NCBI GenBank assembly: GCA_021414025.1
Contig: JAIOPG010000006.1
Location: 186,001-250,000 of the forward strand
Reading direction: 5' to 3'
DNA from: Planctomycetota bacterium
Lineage (GTDB): Bacteria > Planctomycetota > Phycisphaerae > Phycisphaerales > SM1A02
DNA: 64,000 nt
Shown: positions 36,506 to 60,888 of the stretch, piece by piece
How positions within the stretch are numbered: position 1 is the stretch's first letter
Layout: each line of letters begins with the position of its first letter
Made by a program: the position numbers and the translations under genes
Notes under the pieces: model-generated
The model's input: the letters and a program-made list of their open reading frames with translations, nothing else
The model's database searches: none
Told to the model about the DNA's origin: nothing

Positions 36506-37198
36506 ATGAGCCGGCCCTTGCCACCGATCACCGACCCCGAGATCACTCCCCTCTATCTCCACAACCTGCTCGGCGCCACCGCCCGCGTGGTGCTGGAGAT
36601 CGGCGCGCATCATGGCTGGAACACGGCGGGGTTCCTGAAGATCTTTCCCCATGCGTCGATCTACGCCTTCGAGCCCGAGCCCCGCGCCATCAAGAAGTTC
36701 AAGGCCAACGTGAGCAGCCCGCGCATCAAGCTCTTTGAGACGGCCATCGGCGCCGAGGATGGGCAGGCCCAGTTCCACGCCAGCAGCGGCGCGCCTCCCT
36801 ACGACACGCCCGACATCGCCGAGGATTACCCCGACGGATACGACCAGTCCGGGTCGCTGCGCCTGCCCAAGGCCCACAAGGAGATCTGGCCCTGGGTCAA
36901 ATTCGAGAAGACCATCACGGTGCCGGTGCGCAGCCTGGACAGTTGGGCGAAGGAGTACAAGATCGGTCCCGTCGACTTCATCTGGGCCGACATGCAAGGC
37001 GCCGAGGGCGACCTGATCAAAGGCGGCGCCGCCACGCTGGCGCGGACGCGCTACCTCTACACGGAGTACAGCGACGAGGAGATCTACGAGGGGGAGCCCA
37101 CGCTGCAGAACCTGGTGGACATGCTGCCCAACTTCACGATCCTCAAGCGCTACCCCGACGATGTGCTGATGCAGAACATGGCATGGGTGGGGCGGTGA
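36506..37198 (+). CDS. FkbM-family methyltransferase, first of two tandem copies
   Basis: A 230-residue SAM-dependent methyltransferase. The SAM loop is VVLEIGAHHGWNTAGFL (about residues 27-43) with the acidic end of strand 2 in YAFEPEPRA; the FkbM-type signature VRSLDSWAKEY...VDFIWADMQGAEGDLIKGG follows. Such enzymes O-methylate sugars or other hydroxyls. The next gene is a close copy, coupled by a GTGA overlap. Confidence 0.87.
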   Translation: MSRPLPPITDPEITPLYLHNLLGATARVVLEIGAHHGWNTAGFLKIFPHASIYAFEPEPRAIKKFKANVSSPRIKLFETAIGAEDGQAQFHASSGAPPYDTPDIAEDYPDGYDQSGSLRLPKAHKEIWPWVKFEKTITVPVRSLDSWAKEYKIGPVDFIWADMQGAEGDLIKGGAATLARTRYLYTEYSDEEIYEGEPTLQNLVDMLPNFTILKRYPDDVLMQNMAWVGR

Positions 37199-37890
37199 GC
37201 CGCGATCGCCTGCCGCCACTGAGCGAAGGCGAGGTTTCCCCCGCGTATCTGCGCGAGCAGGTCGGCGCCGAGGCGAGGGTGATCCTGGAGATCGGCGCGC
37301 ATCACGGCTTTCACACGGCGGTGTTCCTCAAGATGTTTTCCGGGGCAATGATCCACGCGTTCGAGCCCGATCCCCGCGCCGCGGCGCGGTTCCGGACCAA
37401 CGTCAGCGATCCCCGCGCGACCCTTCACGAATTGGCGGTTGGAGCCCAGGATGGACGGGCAAGCTTTCATGCCAGCAACGGAAAACTTCCCGACTGCACT
37501 CCGGAGGAAGCGGCGCATTATCTCAAGGGCTGGGACCAGTCCGGCTCCCTGCATGCCCCCAAGAAGCACAAGGAACTATGGCCCTGGGTCAAGTTCAACC
37601 GCATCATCACCGTCAATGTGCGCAGCCTGGACAGCTGGGCCAAAGAGCACCAGATCGGTCTCGTTGACTTCATCTGGGCCGACATGCAGGGGGCCGAGGG
37701 CGATCTGATCAAGGGCGGCGCCGCCACGCTCGCGCAGACGCGCTATCTCTACGCGGAGTACAGCGACAAGGAGATCTACGAGGGAGAGCCGACGCTACTG
37801 GAGCTGCTTGACATGCTGCCGAATTTTTCGGTCGACCGGCTGTATGCCGAAAATGTGCTTTTGAAAAACACGGCTCTGGCGGGCCGCTGA
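37195..37890 (+). CDS. FkbM-family methyltransferase, second tandem copy
   Basis: A 231-residue paralogue of the preceding gene. It shares VRSLDSWAKE, WPWVKF, VDFIWADMQGAEGDLIKGGAATLA and YSDKEIYEGEPTL almost word for word, while the substrate region (about 85-120) differs. GTG 37195 overlaps the previous stop (GTGA) and gives an N-terminus that matches the paralogue (MSR..LPP); ATG 37183 is an alternative. Divergent substrate regions suggest two different acceptors. Confidence 0.85.
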   Translation: MSRDRLPPLSEGEVSPAYLREQVGAEARVILEIGAHHGFHTAVFLKMFSGAMIHAFEPDPRAAARFRTNVSDPRATLHELAVGAQDGRASFHASNGKLPDCTPEEAAHYLKGWDQSGSLHAPKKHKELWPWVKFNRIITVNVRSLDSWAKEHQIGLVDFIWADMQGAEGDLIKGGAATLAQTRYLYAEYSDKEIYEGEPTLLELLDMLPNFSVDRLYAENVLLKNTALAGR

Positions 37891-39612: not shown

Positions 39613-40866
39613 TCAGGGGCATGGTCCGAAATCAAGCAGCACCAGGCCGACATCGCCGCCGTCCACCTCGCCCGAGCCGTCCAAATCGGTCATGCAGCCG
39701 GGGCAGGGCCCGAAGTCGAGCAGGATCAATCCGATGTCGCCGCCGTCCACTTCGCCGGAGCCATCCAAGTCCATGGGGCACATGTTCGCCTGGATCGCCA
39801 CGGTGTGGTATCCGCCCGCGGTCACCGCGCTGCATGGACCAAGATCCAAGGGCACCATCGATTGGCCGTAGTGCGGATATCCGGAATTGTCGGTGCCTGC
39901 GCCCCACACCACGACCATGCCGTCCTCACGGAGAGCCACGGTGTGGTAGATGCCCGCGGCGATTGCAACGCACGGCCCGAGATTTGGCGGGACCATCGAT
40001 TGGCCGTACTCCTGCCCAGTCCCTCCGCCATTTGGGTCGTAGGTCATTCCCGTGCCCCAGCACACCACAGTTCCATCATCCTTGAGTGCGACCGTGTGCG
40101 AGTCGCCCACGGCGACGGCTTTGCAAGGTCCAAGCCCGGCAGGAACGATGCACTGGCCGTAGTTCGGCCACGCGCCGGAGTTGACGGTGCCCGCGCCCCA
40201 GCACACCACCGTTCCATCATCCTTGATGGCCGCGGTGTGATAGCCGCCCGCTGCGACAGCCTTGCAGGTGCCCAGCGCCGGAGGAAGGATCAATTGTCCG
40301 TAATCCGGCCAGAAGGAATTCACGGCTCCCGCGCCCCAGGCTTGCACCGTTCCATCGTCCTTGATCGCGACGGTGTGGAAGTAGCCCCCGGCAACCGCTT
40401 TGCAAGGTCCGAGCAACGGAGGCACGATGGCCTGTCCCATGTTCGGAAAATTTCCCTGCGGGGTGGCTTCCATGCCCCAGGCCCGGAGTGTGCCATCGTC
40501 CTGAATGGCTAGTCCGTGATAGGCGCCCGAAGCGAGGGCTTTGCAGGAGCCGAGATTTTCGGGAACGAGGCACTGACCAAACTCAATTCCCGACGCGCCG
40601 CCGAAGGCGACATCGGTGGTGCCCGCGCCCCAGGCGCGGACCGTTCCATCCGCCTGCAACGCCAGCGTGTGATAGGCGCCGCCCGCGACGGAGGTGCAAT
40701 GGCCGAGGTCGCCGGGTACGGGAAGCTGACCGGATAAGTGATCGCCCCAGCCTACGACCGGACCGCCGCTGCCCAGCGCCGCCGAAGTCGCTGCAAGCGT
40801 GGAGAGGGCCGTCAGCACCGCGCTCGTGAGCATGTTCTGAAACTTGAAGGCAGGGGCTGATTTCAT
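39613..40866 (-). CDS. secreted RCC1/BLIP-II-like propeller, 7 repeats, dockerin-like tag
   Basis: A 417-residue exported protein. After the signal peptide (about residues 1-32) come seven repeats of about 45-55 residues built on LGxCxAVAxGxYHTxAIxDDGTVxxWG, then an EF-hand pair (encoded about 39616-39780). The motif is that of RCC1 and BLIP-II seven-bladed propellers; the N-terminal GPVVGWG strand would close the ring with the last repeat. GGAG precedes the ATG. It is the only short family member with the tag. Confidence 0.83.
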   Translation of the reverse strand: MKSAPAFKFQNMLTSAVLTALSTLAATSAALGSGGPVVGWGDHLSGQLPVPGDLGHCTSVAGGAYHTLALQADGTVRAWGAGTTDVAFGGASGIEFGQCLVPENLGSCKALASGAYHGLAIQDDGTLRAWGMEATPQGNFPNMGQAIVPPLLGPCKAVAGGYFHTVAIKDDGTVQAWGAGAVNSFWPDYGQLILPPALGTCKAVAAGGYHTAAIKDDGTVVCWGAGTVNSGAWPNYGQCIVPAGLGPCKAVAVGDSHTVALKDDGTVVCWGTGMTYDPNGGGTGQEYGQSMVPPNLGPCVAIAAGIYHTVALREDGMVVVWGAGTDNSGYPHYGQSMVPLDLGPCSAVTAGGYHTVAIQANMCPMDLDGSGEVDGGDIGLILLDFGPCPGCMTDLDGSGEVDGGDVGLVLLDFGPCP

Positions 40867-41074
40867 TTCGACGATCTCCGGAAAATGTTGTGGGGCAATT
40901 CAAAACCGAACGAACGGATGCCGCCGGCGGGGTCTGGCCGCGACGCCCACGCAGTATGACAGCGCATGGCTTTGAAGCAAACAAAATAAGGGTTTTCCGG
41001 AGGCGGAAATGGGCGAAATGAGCGACGAATCGACGGCACAACCAAGGGCGGTCCGGTCTGGCCGGCGCGGCCGG

Positions 41075-42070
41075 CTATTTCGTCTTGCCTTGCGTGCCGG
41101 TGTTCTTGGTGCCCGCGCCCCACACGACCACCGTGCCGTCGTTCTGCAGCGCCATCGAGTGATAGGAGCCCGCGGCGATTGCTTTGCAGGGGCCCAGATT
41201 CTCGGGAACGATGGACTGATTGTGATTGTTCAGCGACAGCGCAACGCGGGATCCCGCGCCCCAGGCGACGACGGTGCCATCGTCCTGCAGCGCGACGGTG
41301 TGGTAGTTGCCTGCGGCCAGCGCCTTGCAGGAGTTGAGCGTTTCCGGTACATCGATCTCGCCGTTCACGTTGCGGCCCCAGGCGACAACGGTTCCATTCT
41401 CCTGGATCGCCACGGTGTGGTAGCGCCCGGCGGTGATCGCCTTGCAGGGACCCAGATTCTGATGGATGACGGACTGGCCGTAGTTGACATCCATGGCGGT
41501 GTCGGAAATGCCCGCGCCCCAGCTGACAATGGTGCCGTCATCGCGCAGCGCCACCGAGTGGAAGTAACCGGCGGCGATCGCCTTGCAGGGGCCCAGGGTC
41601 TCGGGAATGATGGATTGCCCGTAGCCGGCGTAGCCCCAGGTGACGACCTTCCCGTCCTCCTGCAGCGCCATCGAGTGGTAGTTGCCCGCGGCGATCGCCT
41701 TGCATGGGCCAAGGGTCGCGGGCACTTTTGTCTGACCGTATTGGTTGTAGCCCCAGGCGACGACGGTTCCATCCTCGCGCAGGGCGAGGGTGTGCGATGA
41801 GCCGGCGGCGATCGCCTTGCAGGGGCCGAGCGTCTTGGGCACATTGCATTCGCCGCATCGGTTGAAGCCCCAGGCCACCACGGTTCCATTTTCCTGGATG
41901 GCCACGCTGTGTCCGCTGCCCGCGGCGATCGCCTTGCATGGGCCTAGATTCTTGGGCGGCGTGCCGGTGCCCCACACCACATCACCCGGCGTTGCTGCCA
42001 GCGCGGCGGGCGAGAGCGAAAGAGCCAAGACGGAGACAAACTTCAAGAGCGAAGCAGTGTGTGGATTCAT
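41075..42070 (-). CDS. secreted RCC1/BLIP-II-like propeller, 7 repeats, no tag
   Basis: A 331-residue exported protein. The signal peptide (about residues 1-26, ending ALAA) is followed by seven repeats of about 39-48 residues on the pattern LGPCKAIAAGxxHSVALxxDGTVVAWG. It ends twelve residues after the seventh WG (AGTKNTGTQGKTK) with no EF-hand tag, alone among the five paralogues. ATG 42070 begins the signal peptide; the frame is open further upstream but without signal-like sequence. No clear ribosome site. Confidence 0.8.
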   Translation of the reverse strand: MNPHTASLLKFVSVLALSLSPAALAATPGDVVWGTGTPPKNLGPCKAIAAGSGHSVAIQENGTVVAWGFNRCGECNVPKTLGPCKAIAAGSSHTLALREDGTVVAWGYNQYGQTKVPATLGPCKAIAAGNYHSMALQEDGKVVTWGYAGYGQSIIPETLGPCKAIAAGYFHSVALRDDGTIVSWGAGISDTAMDVNYGQSVIHQNLGPCKAITAGRYHTVAIQENGTVVAWGRNVNGEIDVPETLNSCKALAAGNYHTVALQDDGTVVAWGAGSRVALSLNNHNQSIVPENLGPCKAIAAGSYHSMALQNDGTVVVWGAGTKNTGTQGKTK

Positions 42071-42305
42071 AAATGGCTTTGGACAGTGATCCGCAAACCG
42101 GAAGGCTCGCGACCGTGCCCGCTTCCAAAGAAGAAGAGGCACCACCCCTTCCGTTGGCCGGTTGAGCCAAGTTCCCCGAATAGTCACCGTTAACCGAGTT
42201 TAATCATATATGCAGTTGCGATTGCCTATAACGATTTCAAAACCGCGTTGCTCGCGCGGATTCAATCAGATCGATGAGCGCAATGAATAGGTGATCACGG
42301 GCGCA

Positions 42306-44318
42306 TCAAGGGCAAGCGCCAAACTCAAGCAGCACCATCCCGATGTCGCCGCCGTCCACTTCGCCGGAGCCGTCGAGGTCGGTGACGCAGCCGGGGCAGG
42401 GGCCGAAGTCCAGCAGGATCATGCCGATGTCGCCGCCATCCACTTCGCCGGAGCCGTCAAGATCCATGGGGCAGGGAACCGCAGGAGATTGAATCACGAC
42501 TGAATGCGCATAGCCCGCAGCAATAGCAATGCAGGGTCCGAGCGTTCCCGGCACATCGAATTGACCGTAACTATTTATGCCATTCACATAGACTCCCGAT
42601 TCCCAGGCCACAACGGTTCCATCCTCCTGCAAAGCAATGTCGTGAAGGACACTTGAGGCAATCGCTTTGCAATTGCCGAGGGTTAAGGGGAAAGGAGACA
42701 CACCCCACAGCACGACCGTTCCATCTTCTTTGAGAGCCACAGTTTGGTCCGATCCAGCAGCAATTGCTTTGCAAGCTCCCAGGGTCGCAGGAACATTGCA
42801 TTGGCCACTACCGTTGTAGCCCCAAGCCACAACAGTTCCATTTTCTTGAAGTACCACTGAGTGATATTCGCCCGCTGAAATTGCTTTGCAGGGACCAAGC
42901 GTCGCTGGCACGATGCATTGACCATTGGAATTGCTGCCCCAAGCGGCGACGGTCCCATTTTCCCGCAAACCCAAGGTGTGATACCGACCTGCTGCAATCG
43001 CTTTGCAGGCGCCGAGAGTCGCGGGCACAGTGCATTGCCCCTTGGAGTTGTAGCCCCAAGCCACAACAGTTCCATTTTCTTGAAGCGCAACGGAGTGGAA
43101 ATAGCCCGCGGCAACCGCTTTGCAAGCGCCAAGGGTTGCGGGCACGATTGATTGGCCTAAGTGCGGGCTATTAAAACCTCCACCTATTGTCGTTCCCGCT
43201 CCCCAGGCCACAACGGTTCCATTTTCCTTGAGGGCCAGCGTGTGGACATAGCCCGCAGCTACGGCTTTGCAGTCGCCAAGAGTCGCCGGCACATTGATCT
43301 GTCCATAGTTTTTGTGGCCCCAAACGACGACAACGCCATCATCCTGAAGTGCCACGGCATAGTCATATCCCGCAGCGACGGCCTTGCTGGCGCCAAGAGT
43401 CGCAGGAACAGCGGTTTGGCCGGAGTCATCGTCACCCCACGCGACAACAGTCCCATTTTCCCGAATGGCCACGGAGAGTTTGACGCCCGCAGAGATTGCT
43501 TTGCATGCGCCAAGATTTGCAGGCACCACATTGGCGTTGCCAATACCCCAACTCACCACGGTTCCATCTTCTTGAAGAGCTATCGAGTGCCAGTAGCCCG
43601 CGGCAATTGCCTTGCATGCTCCAAGATTCGCAGGCACCTTTGATTGTCCATTGTCGAAACCATTCGTGCCTTGCGTGGCTCCTGCGCCCCAGGCGACGAC
43701 CGTCCCATCTTCCCGCAATGCAACGGTGTGGTAAAGGCCCGCCGAAATGGCTTTGCAGGGTCCAAGAGATGCGGGCACGATGGATTGGCCTTTGTGCGGA
43801 TTAAATCCGCTTGCACTTACCGTCGTTCCCGCCCCCCAGGCCACGACCGTTCCGTCTTCCTTGAGGGCCACGGTGTGCCAGTGACCTGCGGAAATTGCTT
43901 TGCAAGCACCAAGTGACGCGGGCACGATTGATTGGCCGTAGTTTATGCTGCTGTTCGTATTTGTTGTACCGGCGCCCCATGCCACGACCGATCCGTCCTC
44001 CTTTAGAGCTACGGTATGGAATTCTCCCGCGGAAATTGCTTTGCAGGCACCAAGATTTGCGGGCACGATGGATTGGCCGTAGTTGTTGCCTGAATGCGAA
44101 TTTGTAGTTCCAGCACCCCAAGCCACGACCGTTCCATTTTGCTGAAGAGCCACGGTGTGATATTGACCCGCGGCAATTGCTTTGCACGAACCCATTGCGG
44201 GAAGGGGGAGATCAACCCCCCATGCCACGACGGGTCCGGCGTCAGTCGCGAGCGCAACAGGTGCGGGCATCGCAACGAGCGCGGCTGAAACGGTCAGGCA
44301 ATTAAAAACAATTTTCAT
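42306..44318 (-). CDS. secreted RCC1/BLIP-II-like double propeller, 14 repeats, dockerin-like tag
   Basis: A 670-residue exported protein with a signal peptide (about 1-25), the closing strand GPVVAWG, fourteen repeats and an EF-hand pair (encoded about 42309-42470). Repeats 1-5 and 9 carry longer linkers with AGTTN...GQSIVP, the others the short YNxxGQCxVP form. Cys is kept in thirteen of fourteen repeats (repeat 7 has Ser). Fourteen is twice the seven-blade ring, so two propellers in one chain are likely. GC in sampled stretches is about 55%, below the flanking genes. It lies 34 bp after the next paralogue upstream. Confidence 0.83.
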   Translation of the reverse strand: MKIVFNCLTVSAALVAMPAPVALATDAGPVVAWGVDLPLPAMGSCKAIAAGQYHTVALQQNGTVVAWGAGTTNSHSGNNYGQSIVPANLGACKAISAGEFHTVALKEDGSVVAWGAGTTNTNSSINYGQSIVPASLGACKAISAGHWHTVALKEDGTVVAWGAGTTVSASGFNPHKGQSIVPASLGPCKAISAGLYHTVALREDGTVVAWGAGATQGTNGFDNGQSKVPANLGACKAIAAGYWHSIALQEDGTVVSWGIGNANVVPANLGACKAISAGVKLSVAIRENGTVVAWGDDDSGQTAVPATLGASKAVAAGYDYAVALQDDGVVVVWGHKNYGQINVPATLGDCKAVAAGYVHTLALKENGTVVAWGAGTTIGGGFNSPHLGQSIVPATLGACKAVAAGYFHSVALQENGTVVAWGYNSKGQCTVPATLGACKAIAAGRYHTLGLRENGTVAAWGSNSNGQCIVPATLGPCKAISAGEYHSVVLQENGTVVAWGYNGSGQCNVPATLGACKAIAAGSDQTVALKEDGTVVLWGVSPFPLTLGNCKAIASSVLHDIALQEDGTVVAWESGVYVNGINSYGQFDVPGTLGPCIAIAAGYAHSVVIQSPAVPCPMDLDGSGEVDGGDIGMILLDFGPCPGCVTDLDGSGEVDGGDIGMVLLEFGACP

Positions 44319-44352
44319 TCAGGCTCGCATTCATCAATTGCAACTCAAAAGT

Positions 44353-46287
44353 TTACTGACACGCCCCGAACTCAAGCAGCACCATTCCGATGTCGCCGCC
44401 GTCCACTTCGCCGGAGCCGTCGAGGTCGGTGGGGCAGCCGGGGCAGGGGCCGAAGTCGAGCAGGATCATGCCGATGTCGCCGCCATCCACTTCGCCGGAG
44501 CCGTCGAGGTCGGTGGGGCAGGGTGGTTGCGATTGAATAGCCAACGCATGGTGATAGCCGGCAGCGATGGCGTCACAGGGACCAAGCGTCGATGGCAACA
44601 TGATCTGTCCATAGTCATCTTGACCCCACGCAACCACGGTTCCGTCAACTCGAAGTGCAACGGTGTAGTAGGAACCCGCCGCTATGGCGCGACAGGGACC
44701 GAGGTCCCCGGGGATGGTCGATTGACCGTAGTTGTTGCGGCCCCAGGCGACGACCGTTCCGTCTTCCTGCAGGGCGACGGTGTGATTGCTCGCGGAAATC
44801 GCCTTGCACGCTCCAAGGGTCACCGGCACATTGCATTGCCCATAGCTGTTGTTTCCCCAGGCCACAACCATTCCATCTTCGCGAATTGCCACAGTGTGAT
44901 ATCCGCCTCCGGCGATGTCCTTGCAGGGGCCAAGTGTCGCAGGCACAGTGCATTCTCCATGGAAGTTGTAGCCCCAGGCGACAACGGAGCCATCGATTTT
45001 GATCGACAAGGAGTGTTCCGCACCCGCCGCAATCGCCTTGCAGGCGCCAAGGGACGCGGGAACATTGCATTCGCCTTGCGTGTTGTCGCCCCAGGCCACA
45101 ACGGTGCCGTCTTCCTTCATTGCCACGGTGTGGTAAGAGCCCGCAGCAATGGCCTTGCACGCTCCAAGAGACGGGGGAACGATGGATTGGCCGAGGCCGA
45201 ATATTCCTGAATAGCTGGTGCCTGCTCCCCACGCCACGACGGTGCCATTTTCCTGGAGCGCCACGGTGTGCCAGATGCCCGCGGCAATCGCCGTGCAGGC
45301 GCCAAGCGACTCGGGCACGGTGGATTGACCGTAGTAGCCGAAGCCCCAGGCCACAAGGACTCCATCGGCAGTGATCGCCACGGTGTCTTTACTACCCGCG
45401 GCAATCGCGATGCAGGCTCCCAGATCGCCAAGCACATTGCATTGACCATAGGTGTTGTCACCCCAGGCAACAACGGTTCCATCTAGCTTCATCGCCACGG
45501 TGTGATTGAGGCCGGCGGCGATTGCCTTGCATGGACCAAGCGATGCCGGAACCGTGGCCTGGCCCAAGCTGTTGCTTCCCCAGGTGACAACGGTGCCGTC
45601 ATCTTGGAGCGCAACTGTGTGACCATTTCCCGCAGCAACCGCCTTGCAGGTGCCAAGCGACACGGGCACATTGCATTGGCCGGATCCGTTGGAGCCCCAG
45701 GCAACCACCGCTCCAGTTTCCTTCACGGCCACGGTGTGATTCATGCCTGCCGTAATTGCTTTGCATGCTCCGAGAGTCACGGGCACGATGGCTTGCCCAA
45801 AGTTGTTGTTCAGGCCCGTATTGGTTGTCCCGGCACCCCAGGCCACAACGGTCCCGTCATTCTGGATGGCCGCGCTGTGGTACTGGCCGGCAGCGACGGC
45901 TTTGCATGCTCCAAGACTCGCGGGCACGATGGCTTGGCCATATTCGCTGCCGGAACCGGTATTGGTCGTTCCCGCGCCCCACGCCTCGACAGTCCCATTG
46001 TTCTTCAAGGCCAAGGAGTGATAGCGACCTGCTGCAATCGCTTGGCATGCACCCAGAGATGCTGGGACATTGCATTGACCGTTGGAGTTGGAACCCCAGG
46101 CCACGATGGTTCCGTTGTTCAGACGCGCTAATGTGAAATCCCAACCACCTGCAACGGAATTGCAAGTTCCATAAAGTGGAGGCGACCCCCAGGCCACGAC
46201 CGGTCCGGCATCGGTGGCGAGTGCAACGGGTGAGAAAGCGGCGACAACGGTGGCGGCGACTGTCAGGAATTTGGAAATGTTCTTCAT
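44353..46287 (-). CDS. secreted RCC1/BLIP-II-like double propeller, 14 repeats, dockerin-like tag
   Basis: A 644-residue exported protein laid out as its neighbours: signal peptide (about 1-25, ending ALAT), GPVVAWG strand, fourteen LGxCxAIAAG repeats and an EF-hand pair (encoded about 44356-44520). The N-terminal ALATDAGPVVAWG is identical to the 42306-44318 paralogue, so these two arose by a recent duplication. ATG 46287 begins the signal peptide; another in-frame ATG at 46311 does not. It is probably in one transcript with both neighbours (gaps of 33-34 bp). Confidence 0.83.
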   Translation of the reverse strand: MKNISKFLTVAATVVAAFSPVALATDAGPVVAWGSPPLYGTCNSVAGGWDFTLARLNNGTIVAWGSNSNGQCNVPASLGACQAIAAGRYHSLALKNNGTVEAWGAGTTNTGSGSEYGQAIVPASLGACKAVAAGQYHSAAIQNDGTVVAWGAGTTNTGLNNNFGQAIVPVTLGACKAITAGMNHTVAVKETGAVVAWGSNGSGQCNVPVSLGTCKAVAAGNGHTVALQDDGTVVTWGSNSLGQATVPASLGPCKAIAAGLNHTVAMKLDGTVVAWGDNTYGQCNVLGDLGACIAIAAGSKDTVAITADGVLVAWGFGYYGQSTVPESLGACTAIAAGIWHTVALQENGTVVAWGAGTSYSGIFGLGQSIVPPSLGACKAIAAGSYHTVAMKEDGTVVAWGDNTQGECNVPASLGACKAIAAGAEHSLSIKIDGSVVAWGYNFHGECTVPATLGPCKDIAGGGYHTVAIREDGMVVAWGNNSYGQCNVPVTLGACKAISASNHTVALQEDGTVVAWGRNNYGQSTIPGDLGPCRAIAAGSYYTVALRVDGTVVAWGQDDYGQIMLPSTLGPCDAIAAGYHHALAIQSQPPCPTDLDGSGEVDGGDIGMILLDFGPCPGCPTDLDGSGEVDGGDIGMVLLEFGACQ

Positions 46288-46320
46288 GTGGTCTCGTTTC
46301 AATGTGGTCACTCCAAATAA

Positions 46321-48249
46321 TTACGGACACGCCCCGAACTCAAGCAGCACCATCCCGAGGTCGCCGCCGTCCACTTCGCCGGAGCCGTCCAGGTCGGTGG
46401 GGCAGCCGCCGCAGGGGCCAAAGTCAAGCAGGATCATGCCGATGTCGCCGCCATCCACTTCACCGGACCCGTCGAGGTCGGTGGGGCAGGGTGCTGGTGC
46501 TTTGATCGCCATTGTGTGATATCCACCCGCTGTAATCGCACTGCAAGTTCCTAGGTCTTCAAGCACGCTGCATTGACCGAATTCGCTGTCACCCCAGGCC
46601 ACAACGGTTCCATCTTCTTTGAGAGCGACCGCATGTTCGGTGCCCGCCGCGATCGCCTTGCAAGCGCCGAGCGTCGCCGGCACATTGCATTGACCGTATT
46701 GGTTGTCACCCCATGCGACAACGGTTCCATCTTCCTTAAGAGCCATGGTGTAAAACCCGCCCGCTGCAATTGCTTTGCAGGGTCCAAGATTTGCAGGAAT
46801 CATTGCCTGCCCATAGTTGTATTGCAGTCCCGTATTCGTTGTCCCAGCACCCCACGCCCTGAGTGTTCCATCTTCCTGGAGAACCACAGAGTGGATATAG
46901 CCCGCGGCAACTGCTTTGCACTCGCCAAGGTTTGCAGGCACACTGAGCTGGTTGTAACCATTGTTGCCCCAAGTCACGATGGATCCGTTGTCCTTTAGCG
47001 CAATGATGTAATAGGCACCTACGGCAACATCTTTGCAAGCGCCAAGATTTGCGGGAACTATATTTTGGCCCTGTTCGTTGTTGCCCCAAACCACGACGGT
47101 TCCATTTTCCTTGATCGCAGCGCTGTTCCAGTTGCCGGCAGCAATCGCTTTGCATGCGCCAAGGGTCGCAGGCATGACGGATTGGCTGTAATTCGGGGGA
47201 CCGCCTCCGCTGAATTTTCCGGCGCCCCACGCCACAACGGTTCCATCGGCTTGCAATGCCAGCGAGTGTTCGTCTCCCGCTGCGATTGCTTTGCATCCTC
47301 CCAGGGTTGCTGGCACGATGGCTTGGCCGGCAGCGTAGGAACCCCAGTTAAAGACGGTTCCAGTTTCCTGAACGGCAACAGAGCGGTCAAAGCCTGCCGC
47401 GATTGATTTGCAGGCGCCAAGATTTGAAGGCACAAAGGTCTGTCCATAGTGATTCGTCCTGCCCCAGGCCACTACCGTTCCATCGTCCCGAAGCGCAACA
47501 ACGTGAAAATTGCCCACCGCAATCGCCTTGCAAGGTCCAAGTGTCGCAGGCACAGTGCGTTGTCCGTAGCCATTGGAACCCCATACAACGGCGGTTCCAT
47601 CTTCCTTGAGAGCCGCGGAGTTGTAGAAGCCCGCCGCAATTGCCTTGCAAGCACCAAGTGTTCCAGGCACATTGTTTTGGAGTGCGCCATTTTCGCCCCA
47701 AGCCACGACGGTTCCATCCTCTTTGAGAGCCAGGGTGTGGTTTCCGCCAGCAGCAATTGCTTTGCATGCGCCAAGTGTCGCTGGCACCATGCATTGTCCG
47801 TTTGCATTGTTTCCCCAGGCCACGACGGTTCCATCTTCCTGAAGGGCAACGGAGTGGTAGGAGCCTGCAGTGACCGCCTTGCATGCGCCAAGAGTTACGG
47901 GGACATTGCATTGTCCGCTGTTGTTTTGACCCCAGGCCACGACAGTTCCATTATCTTGCAGAGCAAGGTTGTGTCCGGAGCCCGATGCAATTGCTTTGCA
48001 CGCCCCAAGAGTTGCAGGCACATTACATGCACCATTTGCATTCTCGCCCCACGCCACGACATTTCCATTTTCCTGTAAAGCCAATGAGTGATACGAGCCT
48101 GTCGAACCTGCTTTGCATACTCCAAGCGTTGCCGGTGGCGAACCAGCGCCCCAAGCTGCGACAGTGCCGTCGGCAAGTGCGGCCGTTGAAAATACGATTG
48201 AAAGGGAGACGGCGGCGAACGCAACAAGGCGGGCGAGATGTCGATTCAT
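46321..48249 (-). CDS. secreted RCC1/BLIP-II-like double propeller, 14 repeats, dockerin-like tag
   Basis: A 642-residue exported protein and the probable first gene of the three-gene 14-repeat operon. The signal peptide (about 1-28, ending ALAD) leads into GTVAAWG and fourteen repeats, then an EF-hand pair (encoded about 46324-46488). Several repeats diverge in the HTVAL strand (FDRSVAVQETG, AYYIIALKDNG), which suggests different surfaces. GGAAG lies upstream of ATG 48249; an in-frame ATG at 48321 is a less likely start. Confidence 0.83.
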   Translation of the reverse strand: MNRHLARLVAFAAVSLSIVFSTAALADGTVAAWGAGSPPATLGVCKAGSTGSYHSLALQENGNVVAWGENANGACNVPATLGACKAIASGSGHNLALQDNGTVVAWGQNNSGQCNVPVTLGACKAVTAGSYHSVALQEDGTVVAWGNNANGQCMVPATLGACKAIAAGGNHTLALKEDGTVVAWGENGALQNNVPGTLGACKAIAAGFYNSAALKEDGTAVVWGSNGYGQRTVPATLGPCKAIAVGNFHVVALRDDGTVVAWGRTNHYGQTFVPSNLGACKSIAAGFDRSVAVQETGTVFNWGSYAAGQAIVPATLGGCKAIAAGDEHSLALQADGTVVAWGAGKFSGGGPPNYSQSVMPATLGACKAIAAGNWNSAAIKENGTVVVWGNNEQGQNIVPANLGACKDVAVGAYYIIALKDNGSIVTWGNNGYNQLSVPANLGECKAVAAGYIHSVVLQEDGTLRAWGAGTTNTGLQYNYGQAMIPANLGPCKAIAAGGFYTMALKEDGTVVAWGDNQYGQCNVPATLGACKAIAAGTEHAVALKEDGTVVAWGDSEFGQCSVLEDLGTCSAITAGGYHTMAIKAPAPCPTDLDGSGEVDGGDIGMILLDFGPCGGCPTDLDGSGEVDGGDLGMVLLEFGACP

Positions 48250-48439
48250 TGGGGACTTCCGGAACAAGGATTGAGATGGCGGCCAAATCCGGCCAGACCA
48301 TCTATATGGATAATGAGACACAACCCATTTCGGGCAGATTTGGGCAGTGGTTCCGGATTATCAGCCTAAAACCTGATTTATCTGGTGAATGAAGCTCAAC
48401 CCCCAATATCAGAGCCGAAACAGCGAGTTTGTAAATGAA

Positions 48440-48486: not shown

Positions 48487-51138
48487 TCAGTTCTTGTACT
48501 CGCCCTCGAACTCCGCAGGCACGCTCGGATCGACATCATCGGACGCGGTGGCGCCGAGATTGTCCGGATCGGTGTCCGTGCCGGGAGCGGCTACTTCCAT
48601 CTCGCACATGCGGTGCCAATCATCCAGCGTGATCAGCACCTCGCGCGCGACGCTGCCCTTGTGATCGCTCAGGATTCCGGCCTGGCCCATCTGGTCAATC
48701 AGACGGCTTGCCCGGCCATAGCCGATCGCCATGCGGCGCTGCAGCAAGCTCACGCTTCCGCGATTCGATTCAATGACGATCTCGACCGCTTTCTCGAACA
48801 TCGGGTCGCGATCGCCGCCATCGCTCGCCGCGCAGCCGCCGTCGCGGTTGTCATGCTCCACGGCGGCCTTGGTGCCGCGGATCGCGACCAGCGATCGCTC
48901 GAACGAGGGCCGGGCCACATCCTTCAGGAAGCGGGCCACCTTGCGGGTCTCGCTCTCGGTGACCAGCGTGCCCTGGGCGCGGCGCAGCTCGCTGCTGCTT
49001 GGCGTGAGCACCATCATGTCGCCCTGTCCCAGAAGCAACTCGGCGCCCTTCTGATCCAGCACGATGCGGCTGTCCATGCCGCTGGCAACCTTGAAGCTGA
49101 TGCGGCAGGGCATGTTGCTCTTAATGAGACCGGTGACCACATTCGCCTGCGGCCGCTGCGTGGCAAGCACCAGGTGGATGCTGACCGCGCGCGCCTTCTG
49201 GGCGATGCGCACGATCGACTGCTCCACTTCCTTGTGGGACATGATCAGGTCCGCGAGCTCGTCCACCACGAAGACCATCGCGGGCAGCTTCTTCGGGATG
49301 CGCGCCTTCTCCAGATCGTTGGCGGGCTTGAGCCGTTCGAAGAGTTCCGCTTCGCCCAGCGCGTTGTAGGAAGTGACATCGCGGCAACCCACGCTCTTGA
49401 GCAGCTCGTAGCGCTCCTCCATCTTGTCCACGGCCCACTCCAGGATGCCGGCTGCCTTGGTCATCTCGGTCACGACCGGGCACATCAGGTGCGGAATCTC
49501 GGCGAACTGGCTCATTTCCACCATCTTGGGATCGATCAGGCAGAGCTTGAGCTCATCCGGCCGCTTGGTGTAGAGCCAGCCCATGATGATGGTGTTCATG
49601 CAGACGCTCTTGCCGCTGCCGGTAGTGCCGGCGATCAGCATGTGCGGCATCTTGGCCAGATCGATCACCATCGGCTCGCCCGAGGAATCCTTGCCCAGGA
49701 AGGTCGGCAGCATCATGCCCTGCGCGTGGCCGCCGCTCATGAGCTCCTTGAGCAGCACCTTCTCCTTCTGCTTGTTGGGAACCTCGATGCCGATCGAGGT
49801 GCGACCCACCATGTTGGGAATGATGCGGATGTTTGGGGCTTGCAGCGAGCGCGCGATGTCGGCGGCGATCGTCTGCAACCTCGCCACGCGCGTGCCTGGG
49901 GCGAGCTCGACGGAGTAGAGCGTGACCACGGGTCCGCTCTCGATTCCGGTCACCTCGCCATCGATCAGGAAGGTGTGCAGGGCCTGCTCGAGCACCTGAG
50001 CCTGGTCGCGCACATAGGTCTCCATCGTCTCGGACCAATTGCCGACCGGGTCTTCGAGCAAATCCAAACCGGGGAACTGGTAGCCGTCGTAGTTCTCCTG
50101 CCGGGGAATGTCCTCGTCGCGGGCGACCACGGTGTTGTTGCCGGCCATGCGCAGCGGAAGCTTGGCGATCTTGGCCTTGAGCTCCTCCTCGGTCAGCGTG
50201 CGCGGAGCGGGGATGGGTTCGGCGGCGGCGTCTTCGCGATCCTCCGCCGTTTCCTCGGACTCCTCCTCGTCGGATTCCTCGTCCTCTTCGTCCTCGTCGT
50301 CCTCGTCGGAATCCTCATCTTCCTCGGTGATTTCGTCGATTTCCTCGGCGTCCTCATCTTCGTCGTCGTCATCCGACGCTTCGTCGGAGTCCTTCTCTTC
50401 CTCCTTCTCGTCGGCTTCGAGCACTGCCGAGTTGGAGGAAGCGCCGCTCTTGGCGACTGCGCCGGCCTTCGCCGTGGCCAGCGCCAGGTTCAGCACTGCG
50501 GGACGGGTGCGCAACTTGGCCATGAAACTCTTCCAGTCCACGTCGCGCATCGGCGCCGACCAGTTCCAGAAGTGGGAGAAGTGGCGGGGCAGCGCGAAGA
50601 CGATCTCATCCATGCAGACCACGGCGCCCAGGGCCAGCGCCGTCAGCAGCGCCAAGCTTGTGGCGGTGGCGCTGAAGCGAAGTCGCAGCTCCTCGGCGAT
50701 CCACTGCGGCACCAGTCCGGCTTCGCAACCGGTCAGAGATCCGAGCCGCGGAAACCACAGCGCGTGGATCGCGCTGAAGGCGAGCATCATCAGGCAGGCG
50801 CCGAAAGTCCGCACCAGCGGATGCGTCACGCGGCGGCCACTGGCGATGGCGCCCAGTCCGATCGCGAAGGCGATCATGGGCAGCCACGCGCCGAAGCCCA
50901 CGCCCATATAGATCCAGTAGGCGAGCGTGGCGCCGAGTCGGCCCATCAGGTTGCTCGCCGGGTTTGAATGGATCGCCACCACATGGCTTGGCCAGTCCGA
51001 CGCGCTGAAAGTCGTCATCGCCAGAAAGAGGAAGACCCAGACTCCGGCGGCCATGATCCAGGATGCGCGGCGGGCGAAAGTGGGTGCGGGGAGGTCGCTG
51101 AAGGACCCGGAAGAACCAATAGATGCTGAGCGTGCCAT
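48487..51138 (-). CDS. ftsK: DNA translocase FtsK/SpoIIIE
   Basis: FtsK pumps chromosome ends through the division septum and helps dimer resolution at dif. The 883-residue protein has about four N-terminal membrane helices (residues 20-200), a strikingly acidic linker of about 70 residues (near 238-306, runs of Asp/Glu/Ser), the alpha/beta motor with Walker A GTTGSGKSVCMN (near residue 505) and VFVVDELADLIM Walker B, and the C-terminal winged-helix gamma domain (SVSLLQRRMAIGYGRASRLIDQMG) that reads KOPS-type sites. ATG 51138 follows TATGGAG; an upstream in-frame start at 51225 lacks support. Confidence 0.95.
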   Translation of the reverse strand: MARSASIGSSGSFSDLPAPTFARRASWIMAAGVWVFLFLAMTTFSASDWPSHVVAIHSNPASNLMGRLGATLAYWIYMGVGFGAWLPMIAFAIGLGAIASGRRVTHPLVRTFGACLMMLAFSAIHALWFPRLGSLTGCEAGLVPQWIAEELRLRFSATATSLALLTALALGAVVCMDEIVFALPRHFSHFWNWSAPMRDVDWKSFMAKLRTRPAVLNLALATAKAGAVAKSGASSNSAVLEADEKEEEKDSDEASDDDDEDEDAEEIDEITEEDEDSDEDDEDEEDEESDEEESEETAEDREDAAAEPIPAPRTLTEEELKAKIAKLPLRMAGNNTVVARDEDIPRQENYDGYQFPGLDLLEDPVGNWSETMETYVRDQAQVLEQALHTFLIDGEVTGIESGPVVTLYSVELAPGTRVARLQTIAADIARSLQAPNIRIIPNMVGRTSIGIEVPNKQKEKVLLKELMSGGHAQGMMLPTFLGKDSSGEPMVIDLAKMPHMLIAGTTGSGKSVCMNTIIMGWLYTKRPDELKLCLIDPKMVEMSQFAEIPHLMCPVVTEMTKAAGILEWAVDKMEERYELLKSVGCRDVTSYNALGEAELFERLKPANDLEKARIPKKLPAMVFVVDELADLIMSHKEVEQSIVRIAQKARAVSIHLVLATQRPQANVVTGLIKSNMPCRISFKVASGMDSRIVLDQKGAELLLGQGDMMVLTPSSSELRRAQGTLVTESETRKVARFLKDVARPSFERSLVAIRGTKAAVEHDNRDGGCAASDGGDRDPMFEKAVEIVIESNRGSVSLLQRRMAIGYGRASRLIDQMGQAGILSDHKGSVAREVLITLDDWHRMCEMEVAAPGTDTDPDNLGATASDDVDPSVPAEFEGEYKN

Positions 51139-51241
51139 GGCTCCATAGATCGGAAAAATGGCGGTTTCTTCGTCACAATTGGCGTTTGAGTGGTTTGGCG
51201 GGGGGCGGCTTCGGGATGGAGCCAAGACGGCGGCACTTGGT

Positions 51242-51247
51242 TAGCAT
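51242..51247 (+). promoter_or_regulatory. -10 element TAGCAT for leaderless fabZ-like gene
   Basis: TAGCAT ends 7 nt before GTG 51255 and heads the plus-strand block of lipid and CoA genes. Confidence 0.45.
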
Positions 51248-51254
51248 CGAATCC

Positions 51255-51671
51255 GTGAAATTCAAACTCATCGACGCGGTTCTGGAGCGGAGCGAGGATC
51301 GCATCGTGGCGATCAAAAACGTCACCTCCGCCGAGGAATACCTCGCCGATCACTTCCCGGATTTCCCGGTTCTGCCCGGGGTTTTCATGCTTGAAGCCAT
51401 GGTTCAGGCCGCCCGCGAGCTGCTCAAGGATCAGACCAAGGTCCGACTGGTGCTGGGCAACGTCCGCGCCTTGCGCTACGGCAGTTTCGTCCGCCCCGGC
51501 GAGGCCCTGCAGGTGGAAGTCATCCGCGAAAAAATTCATGAAGATGGCTCCTTCGGGCTGAAAGGATCGGCCGTGGTGGTTCGATCCACCGGCCCCGGCG
51601 AAACAGCCGTCTCCGGCCGCTTTACAATGCGTCCGGTTCGAACCCAAGCCGCCGTCGCGGCCAGTCACTAG
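51255..51671 (+). CDS. FabZ-like 3-hydroxyacyl-ACP dehydratase
   Basis: A 138-residue hot-dog protein. The FabZ active site is visible: DHFPDFPVLPGVFMLEAMVQ with the catalytic His and Glu. It should dehydrate 3-hydroxyacyl-ACP to trans-2-enoyl-ACP. GTG 51255 is preferred over ATG 51216 because TAGCAT sits 7 nt upstream and the resulting N-terminus (MKFKLIDAVLERSEDRIVA) is family-like. It leads an ACP gene and a second dehydratase-like gene. Confidence 0.8.
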   Translation: MKFKLIDAVLERSEDRIVAIKNVTSAEEYLADHFPDFPVLPGVFMLEAMVQAARELLKDQTKVRLVLGNVRALRYGSFVRPGEALQVEVIREKIHEDGSFGLKGSAVVVRSTGPGETAVSGRFTMRPVRTQAAVAASH

Positions 51672-51718
51672 CACCGCCGCCTTCCGAGGCGGCTTCACCA
51701 CTGAATGGAGATTTCACA

Positions 51719-52123
51719 TTGTCATTTGATCGCAAGCAGATTGAGGATGGCGTTCGCGAGGTTCTTGAGGAGGCCCTGGGCGTCGACGCCGAGGATGTCA
51801 CGCCGACGGCCACGCTCACCGGCGACCTGGGCGCGGAGAGCATCGACTTCCTGGACATTCAGTTCCGCCTGGAGAAGAAGTTCTCCACCGCCGCCAAGCC
51901 CTTCAAGATCGAGCAGGGCGCGCTCTTCCCCGAGAACATGCTGCAGGACACGAGCATGGTGGAGAATGGCAAGGTGACCGACAAAGGACTGCAACTTTTG
52001 AAGGAAAAACTGCCGCATATCGACTTTTCCGGCTTCGCCAACGACCGCTCGGTGGGCAAGCTCAGCGAGGTCTTCACCGTCAAGAGCCTGACCGACTTCG
52101 TCGACCGCCGACTCAAGGGCTGA
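51719..52123 (+). CDS. acyl carrier protein (long form)
   Basis: A 134-residue carrier protein, longer than the usual 75-90. The attachment site is GAESIDFLDIQFRLEKKF, where Ser of ESID carries phosphopantetheine (near residue 42). About 45 extra C-terminal residues (from HIDFSGFANDRSVGKL) are unusual. TTG start with GGAG 10 nt upstream. Flanked by two dehydratase-like genes and followed by coaD, so it is likely a specialised ACP rather than the housekeeping one. Confidence 0.82.
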   Translation: MSFDRKQIEDGVREVLEEALGVDAEDVTPTATLTGDLGAESIDFLDIQFRLEKKFSTAAKPFKIEQGALFPENMLQDTSMVENGKVTDKGLQLLKEKLPHIDFSGFANDRSVGKLSEVFTVKSLTDFVDRRLKG

Positions 52124-52172
52124 TTCGCTTTCGCCTTTGCCGCCACGACTCTCCCGACCAAAGGAATTGACC

Positions 52173-52691
52173 ATGCGCTGGATGTGGGTTGACATGATGG
52201 TGGCCTTCGAGCCCGGCCGCCGCCTGACGGCGGTGAAGAACGTGAGTCTGGCCGAAGACCACATGCACGACCATTTTCCCGAGCAGCCGATCATGCCCGC
52301 GTCGCTGATGCTGGAAGGCATGGCCCAGACCGCGGGCGTGCTGGTGGGCAGCACCCGCGACTTCAAGGAGAAGGTCATCCTCGCCAAGATCGGCTCCGCC
52401 ACCATCGACCAGGATGTGGTGCCCGGCCAATCCATCCGCTACGACGCGGTCATCGAGCGCGTGGACGATTCGGGGGCGAGCACCAAGGGGGTCATCTCCA
52501 GTTTCGACCACCGGACCGGCGTCTGGACTGACATCGGCACCACCGAGATCGTCTTCAGCCACATTGATAACAACCGCAGCGGCCTGAACTTTCCCAAGGA
52601 GAACTTCGTTTTCGGCGAGAATTTTCGGCGCCTGCTCAACGCGGCGGGATTGACCAAGGTCATGTCCGCCGCCGGAGTCTCCGGCCCCTAG
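52173..52691 (+). CDS. second FabZ/FabA-like hot-dog dehydratase
   Basis: A 172-residue hot-dog protein. HDHFPEQPIMPASLMLEGMAQTAG holds the His and Glu of the FabZ active site, with Ala-Ser replacing the usual Gly-Val after PIMP. It is longer than FabZ by about 30 C-terminal residues. AAAGGAATTG precedes ATG 52173. Two dehydratases around a dedicated ACP suggest a specialised acyl pathway, but no ketosynthase is in the window. Confidence 0.72.
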   Translation: MRWMWVDMMVAFEPGRRLTAVKNVSLAEDHMHDHFPEQPIMPASLMLEGMAQTAGVLVGSTRDFKEKVILAKIGSATIDQDVVPGQSIRYDAVIERVDDSGASTKGVISSFDHRTGVWTDIGTTEIVFSHIDNNRSGLNFPKENFVFGENFRRLLNAAGLTKVMSAAGVSGP

Positions 52692-52703
52692 GGCCGCGCC
52701 GCC

Positions 52704-53258
52704 ATGCATCATCTCGCCGTCTACGCCGGATCCTTCGACCCCATCACGCTGGGACACATCGACGTGCTCGAGCGCAGCCGCGGCATCTTCGACGAGGTCG
52801 TGCTGGCCATCGGCATCAACATCGACAAGCCGCCGCTTTTCACCATCGAGGAGCGCCGCGAGTTCGCCCAGATCCTGGTGGACCGGCTGCAGAAGAAGAA
52901 TCCCAAGGGCGGCAAGATCCGCGTGGAGAGCTACAACGGCCTCACCACCGATTTCGCCCGCAAGCAAAATGCGTCGGCGATCATCCGCGGCATCCGCAAT
53001 GTCACCGACCTCGCCGCGGAGTGCCAGCTGGCGATCACCAACCGCCAGGTCGCCGAGATCGAGACCGTCTTCATTTTGACCGGCGAGAGCTACGCCTATG
53101 TCTCCAGCAGCCTGATCAAGCAGATCGCCGCTTTTGGCGGGGATTTGCAGCGACTTTCGGCGCTGGTGCCTCCCGAGGTGATCGCCGCGCTGGAAGCCAA
53201 GCGCCGCGACCCCAACGATCCGCTGAGCCGACTGGCCAAGGAGTCCGCGGCGGATTGA
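52704..53258 (+). CDS. coaD: phosphopantetheine adenylyltransferase
   Basis: CoaD makes dephospho-CoA from 4'-phosphopantetheine and ATP. The 184-residue protein has the nucleotidyltransferase HxGH in YAGSFDPITLGHIDV (residues 7-21), IRGIRNVTDLAAE in the middle and the substrate motif YAYVSSSLIKQIAAFGGD. About 20 residues longer than E. coli CoaD at the C-terminus. With panB it ties this block to CoA supply. Confidence 0.95.
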   Translation: MHHLAVYAGSFDPITLGHIDVLERSRGIFDEVVLAIGINIDKPPLFTIEERREFAQILVDRLQKKNPKGGKIRVESYNGLTTDFARKQNASAIIRGIRNVTDLAAECQLAITNRQVAEIETVFILTGESYAYVSSSLIKQIAAFGGDLQRLSALVPPEVIAALEAKRRDPNDPLSRLAKESAAD

Positions 53259-53261
53259 TTC

Positions 53262-53945
53262 ATGGCGGCGAGCTACCGGATCATCTCCATCGGCGCGATG
53301 TCGGCGCACCCGCTGTGGGGCGAGAAGTCCGATGTCCGCGCCGCGCACGCCACCATCACGCTGGTCATTTCCGGCGACGCGCACATTCTGGTTGACCCAT
53401 CGCTGCCGGCGCAGATCCTGCTGCCGCGCCTTGCGGAGCGGGCCGGCAAGAACGCCGACTTCATCACGCATGTTTTCCTGACCAGCTTCCATCCGATCCG
53501 CCGAAGAGGGCTGGACGCGTTTCCCAATGCAATCGTTTTGATCTCGGAAGGTGAGCGGCGCGGCGTGCGCGAGCAGCTCGATGAGAAGCTGGAGCAGGCC
53601 CGCAAGGAAAAGGATGGCGACTTGGCGCGACTGCTCCACGACGAGATCAACACGCTCAACGAGTGCGAGATCGCCCCGGACAAACTGGCCGATGGCGTGG
53701 ATCTCTTTCCGCTGCCGGGAGTCACGATCGGCTCCGCTGGCCTGCTGTTGCCGGCGCCCAGCGCCACCATCCTGATCGCCGGCGACGCGGTGGCGACCTC
53801 GGAGCACTTGGAGCAGGGCCGCGTGTTTTCCCCTTGTTTCGACATCGAACAGGCCCGCGAATCGCTTTCGGAAGCCATCGAGATCGCCGACGTGATCGTG
53901 CCCGGCCGCGACAATCTCATCGTCAATCCGATCCGTCGGTTTTAA
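53262..53945 (+). CDS. metallo-beta-lactamase-fold protein with a degenerate metal site
   Basis: A 227-residue protein with MBL-fold order: VISGDAHILVDPSLPAQIL, then LTSFHPIRRRGLDAF at the HxHxDH position, then PLPGVTIGSAG at the pGHTxGS position and ILIAGDAVAT with GDA kept. The expected ligands are mostly gone (only one His of HxHxDH remains and GHT is GVT). It is probably a non-metal or altered-metal member, with a role that cannot be named. It starts 3 bp after coaD. Confidence 0.6.
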   Translation: MAASYRIISIGAMSAHPLWGEKSDVRAAHATITLVISGDAHILVDPSLPAQILLPRLAERAGKNADFITHVFLTSFHPIRRRGLDAFPNAIVLISEGERRGVREQLDEKLEQARKEKDGDLARLLHDEINTLNECEIAPDKLADGVDLFPLPGVTIGSAGLLLPAPSATILIAGDAVATSEHLEQGRVFSPCFDIEQARESLSEAIEIADVIVPGRDNLIVNPIRRF

Positions 53946-53957
53946 GGGAAAACGGGC

Positions 53958-53963
53958 TACCAT
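53958..53963 (+). promoter_or_regulatory. -10 element TACCAT for leaderless panB
   Basis: TACCAT ends 8 nt before GTG 53972 and favours that start over TTG 53963. Confidence 0.35.
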
Positions 53964-53971
53964 TGGCCACC

Positions 53972-54898
53972 GTGGAGCCCGACAACACCCCATTGAACGA
54001 ATCGCTCGCCACCAGCCGCAGCGCCGACGCCGGCCGCGGAGAGGCCGTCACGCTGCGCACCCTTGCCCGCATGGCCCGGGAGCAGAAGCGCTTCGCCTGC
54101 CTGACCTGCTACGACGCCACCACGGCGCGCTGGCTCGACCGCGCGGGGATCGAAGTGCTGTTGGTGGGCGACACCGCCGCCGAGGTGATCCTGGGTCACA
54201 CCGCGACCATCCACGCGCCGCTTGATTTCATGATCGAGATCACTGCGGCCGTCAAGCGCGGCGCGCCGCGCCGGGTGGTGATGGCGGACATGCCCTTCCT
54301 TTCCTATCAATGCGAACCCGACCAGGCCATCCGCAACGCGGGGCGCTTCCTGACCCAGGGCATGGCCGACTGCGTCAAGATGGAAGTGGATCGATCCTTC
54401 GCGCCGCTGGTGGAGCGGATGGCGCGGGCGGGAATTCCCGTGGTCGCGCATGTCGGCAGCCGTCCGCAGCAGGCCAAATTGAAGGGCGGATATTTCTCGG
54501 CCGGAAGAACCGCGGAGGAAGCAGTCCGTATCGTCGCCGATGCATCTGCCTTGGAGGCCGCCGGCGCCGGCATGTTGCTCGTTGAAGCCTGCCCCCCCGA
54601 GGTAACCCAGTTGATCGTCGAACGAGCCACCATTCCCGTCATCGGCTGCGGAGCCGGAGCCAGTTGCCACGGGCAAGTCGTGGTGCTGCAGGACATTCTC
54701 GGCATGAGCGAGTGGCAGCCCGCCTTCGCGCGGCCGATGGCTGCGGTGGGCAAGGCGATCGAGAGCGGCGCCGCGGCCTTCGCGGATCTGGTTCGCTCCG
54801 GAAAATTGCCGGGCACGACTTACCGCATGGAGGCCGCCGAGCAGGAGAAGCTGCGGGCCATGCTGCGATCGGGAACCGACACCCATGCGGCGCATTGA
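53972..54898 (+). CDS. panB: 3-methyl-2-oxobutanoate hydroxymethyltransferase
   Basis: PanB makes ketopantoate from ketoisovalerate and 5,10-methylene-THF, the first committed step of pantothenate synthesis. The 308 residues have CLTCYDATTARWLDRAGIEVLLVGDTAAEVILGH near the N-terminus, KMEVD in the barrel and VIGCGAGASCHGQVVVLQDILGM near the end, where E. coli has GIGAG..TDGQILV. A 20-residue N-terminal extension is present. GTG 53972 is favoured by TACCAT 8 nt upstream. It overlaps the protease gene by 14 nt. Confidence 0.93.
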   Translation: MEPDNTPLNESLATSRSADAGRGEAVTLRTLARMAREQKRFACLTCYDATTARWLDRAGIEVLLVGDTAAEVILGHTATIHAPLDFMIEITAAVKRGAPRRVVMADMPFLSYQCEPDQAIRNAGRFLTQGMADCVKMEVDRSFAPLVERMARAGIPVVAHVGSRPQQAKLKGGYFSAGRTAEEAVRIVADASALEAAGAGMLLVEACPPEVTQLIVERATIPVIGCGAGASCHGQVVVLQDILGMSEWQPAFARPMAAVGKAIESGAAAFADLVRSGKLPGTTYRMEAAEQEKLRAMLRSGTDTHAAH

Positions 54899-57699: not shown

Positions 57700-57717
57700 C
57701 GCCACACTACGACTCTG

Positions 57718-58215: not shown

Positions 58216-58235
58216 GGCGTGTTGTCGCGCACGAC

Positions 58236-58241
58236 TATGAT
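58236..58241 (+). promoter_or_regulatory. -10 element TATGAT for leaderless gene at 58250
   Basis: TATGAT ends 8 nt before ATG 58250. Confidence 0.4.
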
Positions 58242-58249
58242 CATCGCTC

Positions 58250-59731: not shown

Positions 59732-59750
59732 GGCAAAACGGAGATGCCCG

Positions 59751-59756
59751 TACGAT
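59751..59756 (+). promoter_or_regulatory. -10 element TACGAT for leaderless gene at 59763
   Basis: TACGAT ends 6 nt before ATG 59763. Confidence 0.5.
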
Positions 59757-59762
59757 TCTGCG

Positions 59763-60784: not shown

Positions 60785-60802
60785 GGTAGGCATCCCAACT
60801 GT

Positions 60803-60882: not shown

Positions 60883-60888
60883 CACAGA

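Follow-up and report, generated by a model that had tools for sequence, protein, structure and literature searches.

A tandem array of five genes for predicted exported proteins of the RCC1/BLIP-II type was identified on the minus strand of a planctomycete genome (GCA_021414025.1, a member of the Phycisphaerales), within a stretch of 64,000 nucleotides of contig JAIOPG010000006.1 that was analysed as a whole and is called the window below. The five open frames span positions 39613–48321, and the ATG starts (40866, 42070, 44318, 46287 and 48249) were picked by reading. The genes encode P0001 (39613–40866), P0002 (41075–42070, frame open from 42187), P0003 (42306–44318), P0004 (44353–46287, frame open from 46311) and P0005 (46321–48249, frame open from 48321). 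Counting of the LGxC-type anchors gave 7, 7, 14, 14 and 14 repeat units, respectively, which confirms the numbers given in the initial annotation of this DNA. All five proteins match RCC1_2 (E-values of 1.8e-45 to 3.1e-110; 152–358 bits against a Pfam cut-off of 22), and therefore the repeated anchors are not due to chance. They also exceed the Pfam cut-off of WD40_RLD (164–337 bits against 150). NCBIfam matches of P0002–P0005 to delta_60, WbuC, DfrA18 and TorA were all below the cut-offs and were discarded as repeat noise.

By reading, each of the five N termini consists of a signal-peptide-like stretch followed by a single 'VVAWG'-type strand. The C-terminal part of four proteins (P0001, P0003, P0004 and P0005) consists of a single 'LGxCxAIAAGxxHTVAI'-type half and, behind it, an EF-hand-like 'DLDGSGEVDGGDIG' motif present twice, which makes up a double dockerin-like tail. 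As judged from the sequences, the lone N-terminal strand and the lone C-terminal half are arranged as in a propeller with velcro closure: the N-terminal strand would complete the blade of the last half and close a ring of seven three-stranded blades. In P0001, with its N-terminal velcro half-blade, the ring lies at approximately 39790–40764 (delimited by the anchors and by model strands 37–359) and the double tail at approximately 39613–39786. The three 14-unit proteins, all with the double tail, would form two rings each, at approximately 43344–44243 and 42489–43343 in P0003 (with the seam in unit 7), 45370–46212 and 44533–45369 in P0004, and 47368–48168 and 46501–47367 in P0005. The two short genes had been credited with seven units each, which is correct for their LGxC anchors, but P0002, unlike P0001, has eight WG anchors, a complete last unit and no C-terminal tail. 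The seven units of P0002 may be what is left after truncation of a longer protein near a ring boundary. The region of the three long genes (42001–48000) has a G+C content of 0.57–0.60, compared with 0.61–0.67 across the neighbouring 10 kb, while the region of P0001 and P0002 does not differ from its surroundings.

A profile search of the whole genome (2.8 Mb in 8 contigs, 97.5% complete), in which the best 150 units were listed and the family size is hence a lower bound, revealed at least 25 RCC1-type proteins with 294 units in all, located in 12 regions (the window and eleven others). The same search gave matches in none of 14 control genomes. The tandem expansion of five genes that had been described is thus a real array, but the expansion as a whole is far larger. 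The unit number is 7 in nine proteins, 14 in fifteen and 21 in one, i.e. a multiple of seven in all 25 found. The counter alone placed 24 of the 25 at such multiples; in the remaining protein (L067) it found six units, to which a degenerate final half was added by hand. This counter accepts a unit only if its first half reaches a set score, which keeps the N-terminal strand from being counted as a unit. It misses degenerate halves. A second counter, based on hidden Markov models (HMM), placed 21–23 of the 25 proteins at multiples of seven across four thresholds. Paralogues are not independent, and consequently no probability was attached to these counts. In the 21-unit paralogue (L070, 5200–8202), which would comprise three rings, additional residues are present at both presumed ring boundaries.

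Unit numbers were also determined in relatives of the same genus, family and order (80 stretches, our choice among the matches listed, with 11 candidates scored per genome) and in a wider set of 80 loci from many phyla, which had matched a 14-unit query best and so favour 14. Runs at contig edges and runs of fewer than three units were dropped from the automated counts. As the threshold was lowered from 7 to 2, multiples of seven rose from 35 to 47 of 74 runs in the relatives and went from 85 of 127 to 81 of 123 runs in the wider set, compared with the one seventh expected if the unit number were free. With the HMM-based counter at four thresholds, the corresponding values were 41/87 to 53/86 and 78/135 to 85/134. 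Among the non-multiples at threshold 2, residues of 4, 5 and 6 (modulo seven) made up 21 of 27 cases in the relatives and 34 of 42 in the wider set, and residue 1 only 2 and 5 cases; this excess is what undercounting by the counter predicts. Of the 35 runs counted automatically within the genus (threshold 4), 24 were multiples of seven, and the other 11 comprise five that have 7 or 14 units by eye and six that are unsettled. Among 33 non-multiple proteins of the relatives located off contig edges, 26 have 7 or 14 units by eye, two are true exceptions and five (L155, L193, L211, L215 and L220) are unsettled; by-eye counts lean towards the answer sought, and the automated figures are more trustworthy. 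In the wider set, the non-multiples of four loci were inspected (L109, L125, L143 and L149).

The true exceptions speak against a strict rule. Eleven units were found in L224 (same order) and six in L206 (same family), both outside the genus, and eleven units also in L109 and L125 (other phyla). The expectation that relatives would carry multiples of seven without exception was therefore not borne out outside the genus. Multiples of seven clearly predominate but are not universal. The 11-unit RCC1-type proteins are encoded at 4599–6227 of L224, 9914–14866 of L109 and 9131–12460 of L125. The units of the L224 protein are nearly identical. These 11-unit chains may reflect either a fresh amplification of blades or a collapsed assembly. 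In L228 (4713–9110), Cys-rich stretches separate propeller runs of 14 and 7 units (counted by eye).

The closest known structure is BLIP-II (Streptomyces beta-lactamase inhibitory protein II), a seven-bladed propeller with three-stranded blades (PMC6121496). In a Foldseek search of the PDB with a model of P0001, the BLIP-II entries were the best matches (e.g. 3qhy_B, E-value 4.9e-20, TM-score on target 0.80), and single RCC1-like domains of HERC proteins were also retrieved. Comparison with 1jtd_B by VIA gave a Z-score of 29.8 and a root-mean-square deviation of 2.3 over 261 aligned residues, and BLIP-II is also the best solved relative at the sequence level. The model was built from two sequences and has a predicted local distance difference test (pLDDT) score of 58 and a predicted template modelling (pTM) score of 0.66, values that call for caution. 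At this moderate confidence, it supports P0001 as a BLIP-II-like seven-bladed propeller, the ring that had been proposed for the short proteins. BLIP-II is a single-ring, secreted inhibitor, whereas the family described here also includes chains of 14 and 21 units and carries a tail, and there is no evidence that they bind beta-lactamases.

For the 14-unit chains two seven-bladed rings are suggested, because a sequence seam lies at unit 7. Among units 1–13 of the fifteen 14-unit proteins, unit 7 has a mean rank of 3.1 of 13 in profile score and is the lowest in six proteins (P of about 1e-5 if the 15 proteins were independent). The His of column 13 is present at unit 7 in 7 of 15 proteins, compared with 10–15 of 15 at the other units. 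Units 14 and 7 also stand out in the 21-unit paralogue, as the two weakest of its first 20 units, with extra residues between their halves. Of the 14-unit proteins in the wider set, 15 of 36 have their single odd spacing at gap 7, and some have long linkers there. Several seven-bladed rings per chain are also found in HERC proteins, which contain multi-ring RCC1-like domains, and in WD40 chains with 14 blades, but these are eukaryotic and intracellular, or belong to a different propeller lineage. For WD40 proteins, the reported distribution of blade numbers has peaks at 7 and 14 that are joined by a continuum (PMC9218822).

The long proteins could instead form a single closed ring of 14 blades or an open superhelix. 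This would be in line with the lack of an additional linker at the seam of the window proteins and with the AlphaFold model of P0005, which matched no PDB fold at an E-value of 0.001; that model (three sequences, pLDDT 54) is poor, and the search with it was treated as uninformative and not used for the fold. The seam at unit 7 speaks for two rings, as does the observation that among runs ending at a linker of more than 95 residues (relatives and wider set), those of 7 units are the commonest (24 of 55). Moreover, according to PMC3797127 and PMC8458387, the largest known propellers have 12 blades. A 14-bladed ring or a superhelix is thus regarded as very improbable. The evidence for two rings is not uniform either: the single odd gap is gap 7 in only two of eight 14-unit proteins of this genome and in none of four in the relatives, three of the fifteen proteins place unit 7 only at ranks 6 to 9 of 13, and the P0005 model is poor. 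A seam at unit 7 is nevertheless what the earlier claim of two propellers per long chain would predict.

Growth of the family in whole rings had also been proposed, but the signal of copying at a distance of seven units is weak. The members of the array are likely to be whole-gene copies, since P0003 and P0004 share 60–61% full-length identity with P0005, all three have a long unit 8, and blades at matched positions are slightly more alike. Between proteins of one array, DNA identity is 0.659 at matched and 0.650 at other positions. Lags were tested with unit effects removed and the unit order permuted 500 times. For array paralogues of at least 14 units, the amino-acid residual at matched positions (0.0125) was reached in 0 of 500 permutations and the DNA value in 30 of 500. 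Within proteins, mean amino-acid identity is 0.621 at lag 7, 0.619 at lag 1 and 0.594 at other lags, and mean DNA identity is 0.655, 0.663 and 0.649, respectively. The lag 7 values were reached by 36 (amino acids) and 214 (DNA) permutations, and the lag 1 values by 9 and 73.

These figures bear on whether the sevens were inherited through copying of whole rings or genes, rather than imposed anew by folding. The identity of P0003–P0005 with their common unit 8, the slightly greater likeness of matched blades and the slightly raised amino-acid identity at lag 7 would all fit such inheritance. Against it, lag 7 is null in DNA, lag 1 is equally strong in amino acids, the effects amount to about 1% identity, and the nearly identical 11-unit chain of L224 points to gain blade by blade, a mode of amplification described across propeller families (PMC9218822). 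Third codon positions are 42–49% identical, i.e. near saturation, and therefore old events are blurred either way. Inheritance of the sevens is considered possible, though the less probable explanation, and the lag-7 similarity expected from copying of whole rings is weak at best.

The variability of the blades was analysed in 160 of the 294 units, all of 39 residues; the other 134 were excluded for a different length or register. The most variable of the 39 columns are 11, 30, 28, 12 and 31 (entropy of 3.70 to 3.23 bits, the next being 2.77). The same five columns hold 19 of the 21 published contact residues of BLIP-II (PMC10817188, where the printed 'Tyr19' was taken as Tyr191 and Asn304, which lies beyond the printed chain, was omitted). 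Trp53 and Thr57 were assigned by hand to columns 31 and 35, and the total of 19 is the same either way. Residues in the five columns are 19% Tyr (compared with 2.8% over the whole repeat region), 13% Ser, 10% Asp, 9% Asn and 9% Phe, and their combination differs between all 160 units. A diversified binding face is thus plausible, and the most likely role of the proteins would be that of binding modules directed at different targets. The view that the variable strands form binding faces gains from this coincidence with BLIP-II contacts, while the recognition or adhesion role attached to it is still inferential.

Several observations weaken the binding interpretation. The five columns are also the leading ones in 773 units of RCC1 proteins from the wider set, which makes their variability characteristic of the lineage. 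In any repeat protein, exposed columns can be expected to vary, so variability by itself does not demonstrate selection; third codon positions are nearly saturated, and no target is known. Alternatively, the proteins might have a structural or scaffolding role at the cell surface or in the matrix, bind no ligand specifically and vary by drift of exposed loops; the lineage-wide columns, the lack of a known target and the generic nature of the tail (73 matches in the genome) would suit such a role. Drift accounts less well for the coincidence with the BLIP-II contact columns and the enrichment in Tyr, and columns 18, 20 and 22 of the other hairpin are less variable, although by entropy alone column 19 is high (2.70 bits). 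A scaffold role is therefore judged less likely, and binding remains the preferred function.

The C termini of the window proteins are dockerin-like, or bare in P0002, and direct reading revealed no LPxTG anchor. Four of the five tails match the Pfam dockerin PF00404 with 13.9–17.7 bits, below the cut-off of 22.9, and the fifth stretch gave no match. A genome search with the double tail yielded the 73 matches mentioned above, including those of the propeller proteins themselves. This tail probably serves generally in sorting or attachment. A point against anchoring is that cohesin PF00963 has no match at an E-value of 0.001 in this 97.5% complete genome (1 of 14 control genomes has one). A dockerin/cohesin cellulosome was rejected on the grounds of this result and of the tail scores. 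In the 'planctosome' of freshwater planctomycetes (PMC6461901), exported proteins likewise have dockerin or dockerin-like modules; the genome studied here differs in its missing cohesin match and in a tail below the dockerin cut-off.

Taken together, we favour (with a probability of roughly 0.6) the view that the array encodes exported RCC1/BLIP-II-type propellers built of rings of seven, with a diversified binding face and anchored by their tails. Export is suggested by the signal peptides recognized by reading. According to this model, 14-unit proteins would be two rings with little or no linker and the 21-unit paralogue three, and the need for a ring to be complete before it can close would keep the blade number close to multiples of seven. 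Each blade has five diversified positions, with abundant Tyr, Ser, Asp, Asn and Phe, in the columns with which BLIP-II grips beta-lactamase, and the binding modules would be kept at the cell surface or matrix by the dockerin-like tail. If binding is real, the family would amount to a naturally occurring library of BLIP-II-like binders whose framework is already distinct from the variable positions, and would offer a case for studying how blades can be added to repeat proteins with ring closure intact. A bolder and distinctly doubtful extension is that one genome exports a binding repertoire of at least 25 propellers and 294 blades, each with five diversified Tyr/Ser-rich positions in the columns of a known binding face, which folding proofreads to 7, 14 or 21 units. 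Such a repertoire would constitute a modular, ring-quantised recognition system, with a logic comparable to that of repeat-based receptors.

Tandem, surface-anchored RCC1 genes have already been published for Bifidobacterium of the honeybee gut (PMC4449606, PMC3447821). According to PMC4449606, these genomes contain 7–24 RCC1 genes, mostly in tandem clusters and read by the authors as diversifying, and the LPxTG-anchored proteins have on average seven repeats per domain and two to four domains. Tandem arrangement, many genes per genome and seven repeats per domain are all found here as well. The Bifidobacterium proteins have LPxTG anchors and Flg_new domains, whereas those of the window have a double dockerin-like tail and, unlike them, no linker between the presumed rings. 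As it stands, our analysis extends this precedent to a planctomycete with a different tail. Within the literature that could be searched, no paper combined RCC1 with Phycisphaer, and none of the titles inspected among papers combining two of RCC1, planctomycetes and dockerin concerned this family.

On one side the array borders ftsK, encoded within 48487–64000 of the window. In three congeners (L267–L269) the neighbouring cluster sits on the opposite side of ftsK, an indication that this region has been rearranged. No frame with at least three units was found in nine congener stretches beside ftsK; in six of these only ftsK itself matches genes of the window, and two are short (4.8 and 1.8 kb). 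With such poor gene matches, the flipped cluster and the short stretches, absence beside ftsK in congeners does not date the array. On the other side, the gene next after P0001 (37945–39531, minus strand) encodes a protein with the same double tail and no Pfam or NCBIfam match at 0.001, which we take to resemble SGNH hydrolases. Beyond it, on the plus strand, lie two adjacent FkbM-type methyltransferase genes (36506–37198 and 36943–37890), which by reading resemble a tandem duplicate.

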